Shown: positions 229 to 6,023 of the stretch, piece by piece
Layout of the letters: each line of letters opens with the position of its first letter
How positions within the stretch are numbered: the first letter of the stretch is position 1
Assembly (NCBI RefSeq): GCF_000185725.2
Contig: NZ_KI391953.1
Location: forward strand, 682,001 to 746,000
Length of the DNA: 64,000 bases
Source: Segniliparus rugosus ATCC BAA-974
GTDB lineage: Bacteria > Actinomycetota > Actinomycetes > Mycobacteriales > Mycobacteriaceae
Direction of reading: 5' to 3'
The notes under the pieces: model-generated
Told to the model about the DNA's origin: nothing
The model's database searches: none
The model's input: the letters and a program-made list of their open reading frames with translations, nothing else
Position numbers and translations under genes: made by a program

Positions 229-761
229 TATGTTCCCGCTCTGACGCATAGCGGCCGAAGGACCAGTGTTGTTCCTCCGGCAGATCGGAGCGCCCCATGG
301 CCAGATCCAGTCCCTTGTCCCAGCTCGCCAGCCGGTCCGCGACGGCGATGGTCGCCTTCGCCGCTGGCGTGGGCATGGCTCTCGCGGGGCCGGGAGCCCC
401 TCGGGCGCAAGCCGCGACCATCCCAGGCTTGCCGGACGTCGTCGTCTCCGGTTCGTTCGCCACGGGCCTCAAAGCTTCCAGCGTGCCCGTCGTCAACGCC
501 GGCCCGAGCTACACGATCCCCGGCCCGTTCGGGATCAGCGACACCATCAGCACGTTCCACAACACCTTCACAACGATGGACGCGACCCTCGTCCCGTCGT
601 CGAACCTCGTTCCGCTCGCCAACCTCGCCGACTCGCTGGCGCAGATCGCCGAGACCGGCCTCTCGATCGACACGCTCGGCCAGCTGGCTTCGGCGATCAC
701 CCAGATCGGCCAGTTGGCCTCCGGGCTGAACCAGCCGCTGCAGCTCACCGGCAACGCCACG

Positions 762-2088
762 CTGTTCAACAACGTCACGCAGGGCCCGAGCAACACCTTC
801 ACCGGCCCGTTCGGGTTCGGCAGCACGGCGAGCCTGTTCAAGAACACCTTCACCGGAGTCAGCGCGACGATGGTCGGCGGGGTCAACCTGGGCAAGCCCG
901 GCGAGCTCGCCGCGTCCTTGGGCCAGATCGCCCAGGGCGGCGTCACCCTTGAGAACCTCACCAAGCTGATCTCGGCGATCGGCCAGCTCACGGACACCGG
1001 CTCGGGCACAGGGATGAGCGCGACGCTCAACGCGGCGGCCACCGTCCTACACGACACGTTCGCCGGGCCGCAGCTCGGATTCACCGGGCCTGGCGGGCTC
1101 AGCGCGGCGTTGAGCAGCTTCGACAACACGTTCAACGGGCCGAACGCGCAGCTCGCCGCGTCGATGCCGATCGGGCCGAACGGCACCGCGTTGGAAAACC
1201 TCACGAATCTGGCGAACGCGCTTGGCGGCCTCGCCGACATCGCGAACGCGCTGAGCAAGATCACCTCGCCGGGCGAGCTCGTCAACCTCGGCCCGATCTT
1301 CGGCGACCTCGTCAAACTCGGCTCCGCGCTCGGCGGACCGCTCAACGTCGATCTCGCCGCGAACCTCTTCAACGACACGATCAACGGCCCGAAGCTCGGA
1401 TTCACCGGACCGGCAGGCATCAGCGCGGCGGCCACGACCTTCGGCAACACGCTGACCGGCCCTTCGCTCCACATCACCGGCTCGGTCGGTTTCGACACCC
1501 TTGGCGACGCGCTCAGCAGCTCGGGCAACGTGCTCAGCAATCTCGGCCAGGTGCTGATCAACAACTTCACCACCACGGTCACGTCCTTCAACAACACCAC
1601 GGCAGGTCCGGCTTTCGGCCTCACCGGCCCGGCTGGGACCAGCGCGGCGCTGGCCACCGGGGCTAACTCCTTCACCGGCCCCGTGCTCACCCTCACCCCG
1701 CCAAGGCACCACGGTCAGCTCCTTCAGCGACACGATCACCGGGCCAAAAGCAGACCTCGTCGGGCCCGGCGGGCTCGGGCTTTCGGTCCAAACCGGGAGC
1801 AACACGCTGCACGGGCCGTGGGTGACCACCGACAAGCCTTTGCAGGTCGCTCCACTAGTCACCGCGCTCACCAACACCGGGGAGCTGTTGACCAACCCGA
1901 GTTCGCTGGTCGGCAACCCCGGAGCCCTGCTGGCCAATCTCGGCCAGGCGCTCACCGCGCTGAGCGGTAACGGCAACGTCACGCTGCACTCCTTCAGCGA
2001 CAGCGTGGTCGGCCCGAAGCTCTCGGTTGGCGGCCCGTTCGGACTCGGCATCGGCGTCGACGTCGGCGGCGGGTCGATCACCGGCCCG
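762..2088 (+). repeat. Six of seven 99-bp (33-residue) protein repeats
   Basis: Copies begin near 762, 1044, 1365, 1584, 1720 and 1990, each about 99 bp. Invariant features are F-x-x-T, the GP pairs, TGP-x-G and the closing N-T/S-x-x-GP. A shorter, more divergent copy precedes them around 500-570. The spacing between copies varies (219-321 bp, but 136 bp between copies 5 and 6). Copies 6 and 7 are in the other frame, which is what reveals the frameshift. Confidence 0.7.
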
Positions 2089-2451
2089 AGCGCCACCTTC
2101 AACTCGCAGGGCAAGCTCGTCGGCCTCACCACAGGCGGTTTCGCGGTGAACGCCGTGAGTCTGACCCTCAACGGCCCGAGCGGCACCGTCGCGACGATCA
2201 CAACTCCGAGCTTCAGCGTCACAGGGCCGAGCGTCGCCGACGGCAAGCTCACCGCGCCCTCGGTCAGCTTCGACATCGGTTCGATCAGTTTCGGCACGTC
2301 GTCGGGCACGAGCGCCGCGAAAACAGGGACAAGCCTCAGCTTCGGCACTGCCGCTCCGTCCGCGACAGGCTCCGAGGGCTCCGGCGCAGCCGGAACTGCG
2401 GCGAAGAGCGCGGGCACGATGGGCATTGCGGCTCCTGGGCCGGCCACGACC

Positions 2452-2546
2452 GGGGCCGCCACGACCGGCGCGACCGAGTCCGCCTCGACCGGGGCCGCCA
2501 CGACCGGCACGACCGAGTCCGCCTCGACCGGGGCCGCCACGACCGG
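2452..2546 (+). repeat. 39-bp tandem repeat, 2.4 copies, in frame
   Basis: Copies at 2452-2490 and 2491-2529 differ by one base; a partial third runs 2530-2546. They encode a 13-residue unit starting GAATTG and ending ESAST in the low-complexity tail. Confidence 0.8.
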
Positions 2547-3363
2547 GTCAACGACAACGGGCTCCACTGCGGCGAAACCGACGGCCAATGACACGGCCCA
2601 GGCGGCAGGCTCCACGGCGACCAAGCCGTCTGCCGTCGAAACGGGCACGGACTCGGCCAAGAGCCTCCACTCGATGACCGACAGCGCTCTCGGCGCGGCC
2701 ACCGGCGCCGGCGCGATGGGCACGGGCACGACGACCGGCACGGCTGGAATCGGGTCCACCGGCTCCAGCGCGAGCGCTGGCACGACTGGAACCGGGACCA
2801 CGAGCGCGGGCACGACGGGCACGGCGAGCGGCACGACCGGTTCCGCCGCGACAGGCTCCGCCACGACCGGGACGGCTGGCTCCTCGGCAACGGGCACGGC
2901 CGGTTCCGCGACGACGGGCTCTGCCACGACCGGTTCCGCGACGACCGGGACGGGCTCGACCAAACCGGGCACGTCTGCGACAAGCGACGGGGCGAGTTCC
3001 GCCGGAACCAGTGGCTCCAGTTCCGGCACGGCTGGCTCCGGGTCGAGCGCAAGCGGCTCTGGGACGGCTGGCTCCGGTTCCGGCACGAGCGGCGGTTCGG
3101 GCACGGGCGGCGGTTCGAGTTCGAGCGCTTCCAGCGGGAGCAGCAGCGGCGCTGGTTCTTCCAGCGGCTCCGGGGCTTCGACAAGCGGCTCCAGCAGCGG
3201 CTCTGGTTCTTCCAGCGGCTCCCACGACAGCTCCGGCTCCTCCGGCGGCTCCCATGGCGGCTCCGGCTCGGGCGGTGGTTCCGGTTCTTCCGGAGGCGGC
3301 TCGCACGCCGGTTCCTCGGGCGGCGGCTCGCACGGCAGCGGTGGCTCGAGCCACTGAACCGAG

Positions 3364-3411
3364 CAGAAAGGTCGAGAGCAGGTCCTACCGGGCCTGCCCT
3401 CGACTTTTCTG
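3364..3411. terminator. Bidirectional hairpin terminator between convergent genes
   Basis: A 19-bp inverted repeat (3364-3382 with 3393-3411, two non-Watson-Crick positions, 10-nt loop) lies between the repeat-protein gene and gntK. The gntK stop codon sits in the loop, so the stem includes its last codons. TTTT follows on the plus side. Confidence 0.7.
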
Positions 3412-3921
3412 CGTCTTTTGCTCTCGACCCAGCCAGGAGAGGATGGCGGCTGCTTGTTCCTGCGGGCTTTGCCGCAGATCGACAACCAAGCCGGGCTCGT
3501 CGGGGCCCAGCCGCTCCAAGTCTGCGAGCTGGGAGTCTAAAAGGCTGGCGGGCATGAAGTGGGCGCGGTGCGCCATTCGCTCTGCGAGCACGTCGCACGG
3601 CCCGTCGAGATGCGCGAAGACGACTTCGCCCTCGGGGCTGCCGCCCCGCAAACGGTCCCGATAGGCGCGCTTGAGCGCGGAGCAGGACACCACTGCGTCC
3701 GCGCCGACGGCGCTCCGCTCGCGGATCCAGGCGGCGACAGCGGCGAGCCACGGCCACCGGTCCTCGTCGGCGAGGGGGATCCCCGCCGACATCTTCGCGA
3801 TATTCTCCGGCGGATGCAGCTGGTCCCCTTCGAGGAGATCCCAGCCCCGTTCCTCGGCGAGCAGCCCGGCGATCGTGCTCTTGCCGCAACCGGAGACGCC
3901 CATGACCACGACAACTGCCAT
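3385..3921 (-). CDS. gntK: Gluconokinase
   Basis: Phosphorylates D-gluconate to 6-phosphogluconate with ATP, feeding the pentose phosphate pathway; cytosolic. The protein starts MAVVVVMGVSGCGKST, a Walker A P-loop at residues ~8-16, followed by the family segments EGDQLHP, P-L-x-DEDRWPWL and SCSALKRAYRDRLR. At 178 residues it has the usual thermoresistant-gluconokinase length. I chose the ATG at 3921; a TTG at 3930 would add three residues. It lies ten bases after the gluconate permease stop and is the last gene of a tetR-gntT-gntK set, so uptake and phosphorylation are coupled. Its 3' end forms part of the terminator hairpin. Confidence 0.93.
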   Translation of the reverse strand: MAVVVVMGVSGCGKSTIAGLLAEERGWDLLEGDQLHPPENIAKMSAGIPLADEDRWPWLAAVAAWIRERSAVGADAVVSCSALKRAYRDRLRGGSPEGEVVFAHLDGPCDVLAERMAHRAHFMPASLLDSQLADLERLGPDEPGLVVDLRQSPQEQAAAILSWLGREQKTQKSRGQAR

Positions 3922-3931
3922 GCAGTCCAAC

Positions 3932-5218
3932 CTACGGCACGAGCGCGGCGAGCACGAGGACGCAGCTGAGGCCGACGAGCGAGATCAGCGTTTGCAACGC
4001 GGTCCAGGTTTTGACCGTCTGCGCGATATCCAGGTCGAAATAGCCCTTGACCAACCAAAACCCTGCGTCGTTGACGTAGGAGAAGAACACCGAGCCAGAG
4101 CCGATGGCCAAGACTAAGAGCGAGACGTGCGCGGGGGAGAGGCCGGCGGTCAGCGGCGCGAGGATGCCGGACGCGGTCACAGAGGCCACGGTCGCCGATC
4201 CGGTCGCCACCCGGATGAGCGCCGAGACCAGCCATGCGAGCAGGAGCAACGGCAAATGGCTGTCGCTCGCCGCTCGGGCGATGAAGCCGCTGACCCCCGC
4301 GTCGACGAGCACCTGTTTGTACCCGCCGCCGCTGCCGATCATCATCGTCAGGCCCGCCATCGGGGCGAGCGCGCCGTTCAAGCTCTCGGCGACCGAGGCT
4401 CGCGGCATGCCGAGCAGCGCCGCAGCGGCGAGCACGCCGAGGCCGAGCGCCACGAGCGGTGTTCCGAGCAGGTCGAACACCCCGCGCAGCGGGTGCGACG
4501 GCTCCATGGCGATCTCCGAGGCCGACCGGCACACCATGAGCGCGATCGGGACGAGGATCACGGTGATCGTCCGTCCGACGGGCAGACGGACGCGTTCGTC
4601 TTCGGCCTCGTCGGGCGCGAACAAAGCGGGGGCCGAGACCGGGACCCAGCGCGCGGCGACGGAGCCGAACACCGGGCCGCTGATGATGGCGACGGGGATC
4701 GCGCACGCGAGGCCGAGCAGAAGGGTGATCCCGAGGTTCGCGTGCACCGCCGCGACTGCGGCGAGCGCGCCGGGATGCGGCGGGACGAGGCAGTGCAATG
4801 TGGAAAGCGCGGCCAGTGCCGGGATGGCGATCCGCATCACGGGGAGCCCGGATCGGCGGGCCGCGAGGAAAATCACCGGCATGAGCAGCACCGCGCCCAC
4901 TTCGAAGAAGAGCGGCAGGCCGACGAGCAGGCCGACCGCCAGCATGGTCCACGGCAGCATGCGCGGAGAGGAACGGGCCAGCAGCGCGTCGACGACGGTG
5001 TCGGCCCCGCCGGAATCGGCCAGGAGTTTGCCGAACATCGCGCCGAGGCCGATGAGGATGCCGACGTCGGCCATGGTCGTCCCGAACCCTTTGACGAACG
5101 ATTCGACGGTCGTCGTTCCGCCGAGCCCCGCGCCGAAACCGGCGGCGAGCGCCCCTGCGGTCAAGGCGAGGAAAGGATGGAGCTTGAGCCGGGAAATGAG
5201 CACGACGACCATGGCCAT
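3932..5218 (-). CDS. gntT: Gluconate permease, GntP family
   Basis: Proton-coupled gluconate importer in the cytoplasmic membrane. The 428-residue sequence is almost entirely hydrophobic with about 12 membrane segments and carries typical GntP stretches: a Leu/Ala-rich first helix, GLGAMFGKLLADSGGAD, LPLFFEVGAVLLMPV and CLVPPHPG. The ATG at 5218 is the first good start; the frame stays open back to the upstream tetR stop but has no ATG or GTG there, so the family's extra N-terminal residues may be missing or start from a rare codon. Next to gntK, gluconate is the likely substrate. Confidence 0.9.
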   Translation of the reverse strand: MAMVVVLISRLKLHPFLALTAGALAAGFGAGLGGTTTVESFVKGFGTTMADVGILIGLGAMFGKLLADSGGADTVVDALLARSSPRMLPWTMLAVGLLVGLPLFFEVGAVLLMPVIFLAARRSGLPVMRIAIPALAALSTLHCLVPPHPGALAAVAAVHANLGITLLLGLACAIPVAIISGPVFGSVAARWVPVSAPALFAPDEAEDERVRLPVGRTITVILVPIALMVCRSASEIAMEPSHPLRGVFDLLGTPLVALGLGVLAAAALLGMPRASVAESLNGALAPMAGLTMMIGSGGGYKQVLVDAGVSGFIARAASDSHLPLLLLAWLVSALIRVATGSATVASVTASGILAPLTAGLSPAHVSLLVLAIGSGSVFFSYVNDAGFWLVKGYFDLDIAQTVKTWTALQTLISLVGLSCVLVLAALVP

Positions 5219-5278
5219 GCTGGCGAGGATGGAGAGGATCAGCGCTGTTTTGTCGATGCGACGAGCATAATCCTGGAT

Positions 5279-5911
5279 TCAGCCGCTGTCGCCGTCCTGG
5301 GCGAAGGACGCGGCGATGATCGGAAGGAAGTAGGCGCGGGCGAACGCGCGCGTGTCGTCGTCGGTGTCCATGGGCAAGACAGGGGTGGGGGAGAGCAGCA
5401 GGGTGGCGGTGATCCGGAGCATGAGCTCGACGGCCCGCTCCGCCGCTTCGATCCGCCCGGGGGAGAGTTGGAGGGCGAGGAGCGTGCGGATCACCTGGTA
5501 GCCCTCGGGGGCTTCGCCGAACGAGCCGAACGAGAATCGTTCCGGCTCGAACTCTTTGATCGCCGCGACCACCGGGTTCTGCTGGCAGGCGCGCATCCCC
5601 GAGACGAACGCCTCGACCACCCGCTCCTCCGGCGAGAGCTCCGGCGGGATGCTGGCTTCGATTTCGAAGAAGAAGTGCAGCACCTCGCGGACGACGACCG
5701 CCGAGATGATCTCGTCCTTGTCCCCGCAACGACGGTGGAGGGTCTGGCGGGAGACTTTGGCGCGGCGGGCGATGTCGGCCACCGCCGCGCGGCGGAATCC
5801 ATGCGCGACGAACTCGGCCCGCGCCGCGTCGAGAATCCTGCTCTGCTCTGGATCCTCGGTGACCGCCTGCCCGGAGAGGACCTGCGCCAGCATCGAGTCG
5901 AAGTCGACCAC
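5279..5911 (-). CDS. TetR-family regulator of the gluconate genes
   Basis: A 210-residue DNA-binding repressor. Residues ~20-65 form the TetR helix-turn-helix (ILDAARAEFVAHGFRRAAV, then DIARRAKVSRQTLHRRCGDKDEI); the rest is the helical ligand domain. I chose the GTG at 5911, which has AGGA nine bases upstream; the frame is open further but that part is low quality. It is the first gene of the minus-strand set ending in gntT and gntK, so control of gluconate uptake is a reasonable inference. The ligand is unknown. Confidence 0.8.
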   Translation of the reverse strand: MVDFDSMLAQVLSGQAVTEDPEQSRILDAARAEFVAHGFRRAAVADIARRAKVSRQTLHRRCGDKDEIISAVVVREVLHFFFEIEASIPPELSPEERVVEAFVSGMRACQQNPVVAAIKEFEPERFSFGSFGEAPEGYQVIRTLLALQLSPGRIEAAERAVELMLRITATLLLSPTPVLPMDTDDDTRAFARAYFLPIIAASFAQDGDSG

Positions 5912-6023
5912 GAATGACGATCCTACCGCCTCGCCGCCGCTGGTCGGGCCATTGCGCGACGGATTAGGATCGATGCGGCCAACGCCGGGAGCGCGGCGCG
6001 CCGACGGTTGGACAGGAGCGAGC

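Follow-up and report, generated by a model that had tools for sequence, protein, structure and literature searches.

An orphan Gly-Pro repeat of Segniliparus rugosus, encoded across a +1 frame break, as part of a putative envelope protein

Immediately downstream of purL in Segniliparus rugosus ATCC BAA-974, a gene spread over two reading frames encodes an orphan repeat, i.e. one without an entry in the profile libraries searched (Pfam, NCBIfam and PHROGs). Judging from its sequence features, this gene would encode, with a probability of about 0.5, a lineage-specific secreted envelope protein made of an ectodomain of repeats followed by a disordered tail. Positions are given relative to the window, namely the whole stretch of 64,000 nucleotides analysed (C1:682001-746000, where C1 stands for contig 1), and those elsewhere in the contig carry the prefix C1.

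Seven GP-x5-GP-x-G modules are present in the protein, against a maximum of two when the mature repeat region was shuffled 5000 times, and a third GP (GP-x5-GP-x15-GP) occurs in five of the seven, against a maximum of one in 5000 shuffles. As located by motif count and profile match, all on the forward strand, copies 1 to 5 occupy positions 471-590, 753-872, 1035-1154, 1356-1475 and 1575-1694 in the first frame, while copies 6 and 7 lie at 1711-1830 and 1981-2100 in the second, the spacing from copy to copy being 94, 94, 107, 73, 45 and 90 residues. The initial annotation had described seven copies of a 33-residue unit alternating with Leu/Ala-rich spacers; the number of copies stands and the spacers, rich in Leu, Ala and Ile, are present by inspection, but the length of the unit does not hold, the conserved module extending over about 40 residues. 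Each module is itself a doubled F-x-N/D-T-x-x-GP-x-L half-motif, the two halves being about 24 residues apart (hhalign, E 1.9e-7), a score reached by none of 2000 column permutations. Pairwise identity among the copies ranges from 25 to 53% at the amino acid level and from 42 to 68% at the DNA level, which indicates an old and diverged repeat rather than a fresh tandem array. Besides, the spacers following modules 1 and 2, DSLAQIAETGLSIDTLGQLASAITQIGQLASG and ASLGQIAQGGVTLENLTKLISAIGQLTDTG respectively, are similar to one another and thus point to a long repeat of about 94 residues in the early copies.

On either side of the repeat region, the protein carries features compatible with export. 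The N terminus, MARSS...AMVAFAAGVGMALAGPGAPRAQA, read by eye from the translation, resembles a signal peptide over residues 1-39 (297-413, forward strand), with a basic n-region, a hydrophobic core and a putative AQA|A cleavage site. At the other end, a tail of 349 residues (2308-3354, forward strand) matches the low-complexity segment of about 350 residues noticed at first; it comprises 90 Ser, 90 Gly, 70 Thr and 60 Ala, i.e. 310 of the 349 residues or 89%, and terminates in ...GGSHGSGGSSH before the stop codon. The tail end lacks an LPXTG-like motif or a hydrophobic anchor and therefore does not qualify as a sortase substrate. The mature part is of low charge and devoid of cysteine (19 Lys and Arg, 36 Asp and Glu and 0 Cys in 980 residues). 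By inspection, a secreted or envelope location, as initially proposed, would fit both the signal-like N terminus and this composition. PMT-type glycosyltransferases are encoded in the genome, one of them two genes upstream of the repeat gene, and their presence, together with general knowledge of mycolate actinobacteria, suggests that the tail may be mannosylated.

The single continuous frame assumed over 297-3357 in the initial annotation gives way to two, a break having been missed. As retrieved from the list of open reading frames and their translations, the first open frame (297-1970, forward strand) counts 557 residues and is genuinely coding up to about 1694-1710, after which it runs through out-of-frame Arg/His-rich residues until the stop at 1970; the second (1558-3357, forward strand, stop at 3357), shifted by +1, is coding from about 1711 and holds copies 6 and 7, a degenerate GP stretch and the tail. 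Third-position GC in the first frame stays at 0.85-0.97 as far as about 1650; over the next 500 bases or so, it is 0.79-0.93 in the second frame, the switch occurring at about 1650-1800. The last module of the first frame, copy 5, reaches to 1694, and copy 6, the first module of the second frame, opens at 1711, so that the change of frame takes place in between, at 1695-1711 on the forward strand. As assembled, normal translation would make only the 557-residue product, lacking modules 6 and 7 and the tail, and because of this break an intact protein is unproven; the two halves were joined solely for repeat counting and searches. Plain ORF calling at this locus would return two truncated genes instead of one repeat protein.

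Regarding the origin of the break, a sequencing error in the assembly, the gene being intact in the organism, has roughly even odds; it concerns the break only and is compatible with the envelope-protein reading. There is a single lesion, across which the coding signal runs on, and a stretch of 100 N, found within 474 kb, indicates a scaffolded assembly. The published draft of S. rugosus (3,567,567 bases in 30 scaffolds) was obtained from 13x 454 data only, an indel-prone method (PMC3368418); the present assembly, of 3.59 Mb in two contigs, differs from that version, and the descent of the window from those data is an assumption. Against such an error, few indels are seen locally in comparison with the sister genome, S. 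rotundus: over some 35,000 alignable amino acids, i.e. about 105 kb of coding sequence, candidate frame changes number two on the side of the window and three on the other, so that the assembly appears fairly clean, though not free of them.

The same low count would suit a real frame change in the strain, with the full protein lost and the locus decaying as a pseudogene, which is possible but clearly less probable. The two frames are unambiguous and the adjoining purL is without frame changes. The lesion stands alone in 3 kb and both halves retain a clean repeat as well as third-position GC of coding type, which speaks against a pseudogene and implies that decay, if any, is recent. Programmed +1 frameshifting, by which one message would yield products of two lengths, ranks last among the explanations of the break and is very unlikely: the frames do overlap openly over 1558-1970, and the repeat continues with its modules on both sides, but a recognised slippery motif is absent by inspection, no Rfam match was obtained, and there is no homologue to reveal a conserved slippery site. 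More improbable still is the composite picture of an undescribed repeat fold (doubled F-x-N-T-x-x-GP) serving as a surface rod unique to one Segniliparus species, helping to set it apart from S. rotundus and made in two lengths by +1 frameshifting.

Membership of a known family, namely PPE-MPTR, PE-PGRS or collagen-like proteins, is the least credible alternative of all. Repeats rich in Gly, Asn and Pro, in an actinobacterium with mycolates, would suit it, but no Pfam, NCBIfam or PHROGs model of these families matched at E <= 1, the spacing is GP-x5-GP-x15-GP, and the place of a PE or PPE domain is taken by an N terminus resembling a signal peptide. It had been noted at first that the repeat was unrecognised and differed from MPTR, PGRS and collagen repeats, and this view is borne out accordingly. 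The sole Pfam match up to E = 1 was Myco_19_kDa (E 0.68, under its cut-off), and NCBIfam and PHROGs gave none for the repeat protein. PPE-MPTR proteins, with their PPE domain and NxGxGNxG-type pentapeptide repeats, had no Pfam match at E <= 1 in either half, nor was there a match to PE-PGRS proteins, in which a PE domain is followed by GGA/GGN repeats. These mycobacterial proteins, which belong to the envelope of mycolate actinobacteria and are repetitive and rich in Gly and Asn, are comparable to the present one, which differs by its lack of a PE/PPE domain, its repeat spacing and its putative Sec-type N terminus. Regular Gly-Pro pairs are shared with collagen-like bacterial surface proteins, whereas the pairs are here set 7, 17 and about 94 residues apart, without the Gly-X-Y triplet periodicity.

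The search for relatives was extended to 401 genomes of the family (two profile searches) and 396 genomes of the phylum (one profile search), and none was found. Stray profile matches at E 8e-4 to 0.01 per genome are at about chance level for 400 genomes; the seven loci read among them were known enzyme types, spacer-only matches or Arg/His-rich, probably non-coding frames, and no GP module was visible by eye in any of the seven. Two seeded scans of genome contigs, which detect close relatives only, a tblastn search of plasmids and phages and a single-protein scan of viral contigs likewise returned no relative. In the PDB, matches to Gingipain R2 (E 0.22) and, over a spacer only, to a designed coiled coil (E 4e-4) are read as helix-like composition and not as kinship. 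A short and diverged repeat being a weak query, very distant relatives may exist.

Structure prediction with AlphaFold2 reached a pLDDT of 36 from the single sequence and of 41 from a pseudo-alignment of the repeats, which is very low confidence. In the latter model, the GP modules contain short strands and the spacers are helical; this pattern gives a mere hint of the beta-solenoid expected at first, and a Foldseek search with the model gave no match at E <= 0.001.

From these elements, a tentative role can be put forward for the putative envelope protein. The pre-protein would be exported by Sec; short strands, with turns at each Gly-Pro pair, would make up the GP modules and amphipathic helices the spacers, the whole forming an elongated repeat ectodomain; the disordered and probably O-mannosylated tail could act as a flexible stalk, either holding the ectodomain in the mycolate envelope or spacing it from the envelope, without a sortase anchor. 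Surface proteins with a signal peptide, a repeat-rod ectodomain and a long Ser/Thr-rich low-complexity stalk constitute a general type. The repeat protein would share with it all three elements and departs from it by the absence of a sortase motif and of any sequence relation to profiled repeats, binding being only putative. As to function, contact is envisaged through adhesion, matrix or shielding, putative adhesion being the likeliest guess. Counted in favour of an envelope protein are the signal-like N terminus, the low-charge, cysteine-free mature part, the half-motif duplication, the persistence of the module and of third-position GC of coding type on both sides of the break and, at very low confidence, the strands and helices of the pseudo-alignment model, as well as the PMT-type enzymes and two further Ser/Gly/Thr-rich, signal-like ORFs in the genome; counted against it are the frame break, the lack of a homologue and of an anchor motif, the poor pLDDT of both models and a fold search without a match at E <= 0.001.

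These two ORFs are adjacent paralogues of 817 and 722 codons on the reverse strand (C1:927342-929792 and C1:930869-933034, respectively). Each has a signal-like N terminus followed by several hundred Ser/Gly/Thr low-complexity residues, features shared with the repeat protein, from which they differ in having no GP modules and in ending with a Gly/Ala-rich domain; the latter is 93% alike between the two and found no match in 30 relatives, sister species included.

The repeat gene was at first thought to belong to a genus-specific family, and neither term is supported. Segniliparus has two described species (PMC3368418), and the other genome searched, that of S. rotundus, has no copy, while the gene is single copy in its own genome. 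In S. rotundus, merely 31 bp separate the end of the purL match from the point where conservation resumes; in S. rugosus, purL ends about 35 bases ahead of the window start and conservation resumes at 6010, after a 6-kb block. Besides the repeat gene, this block contains three genes on the opposite strand, namely a convergent neighbour encoding a P-loop kinase (3385-3930, AAA_33 and SKI matches), a GntP gluconate permease (3932-5218, PF02447, E 3.3e-118) and a TetR-type regulator (5279-5956, PF00440, E 4e-12). The kinase is presumably a gluconokinase, in view of its GntP neighbour and of what is known of the family. With a GC content of 0.69-0.70, near the 0.68-0.70 of its flanks, the block does not stand out in composition as recently acquired foreign DNA, and either a gain in one species or a loss in the other would account for it. 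S. rugosus outlasts S. rotundus in macrophages and mice and is the more virulent of the two sister species (PMC3612032); that it also has the block, which S. rotundus lacks, is a co-occurrence only. No match to the permease was obtained in the genome of S. rotundus, and the gluconate kinase/permease/TetR cluster (3385-5956) may set the two species apart in metabolism.

Ahead of the repeat gene, a consensus scan, with one match against 0.1 expected, located a promoter-like TTCACA-17-TATGAT at 82-110 on the forward strand, which is a consensus match only. A terminator-like scan reported a 7-bp GC-rich inverted repeat at 180-199, assigned to the reverse strand, in the leader that separates purL from the repeat gene; this inverted repeat had no match in Rfam and could be a purL terminator or a leader element. 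Further upstream, the PMT-type enzyme mentioned above is a YkcB-type PMT_2 glycosyltransferase; its gene, about 2.4-4.4 kb ahead of the window (L014:5633-7585), is flanked by a ykcC-like gene on one side and purL on the other. About 108 bp separate its flanking matches in the sister genome, where its best match (53%) lies elsewhere. A partial YkcB-like match is also found at C1:2017986-2019029, less than 10 bases from the end of contig 1 (2019037), and the contig may thus break inside a glycosyltransferase gene.
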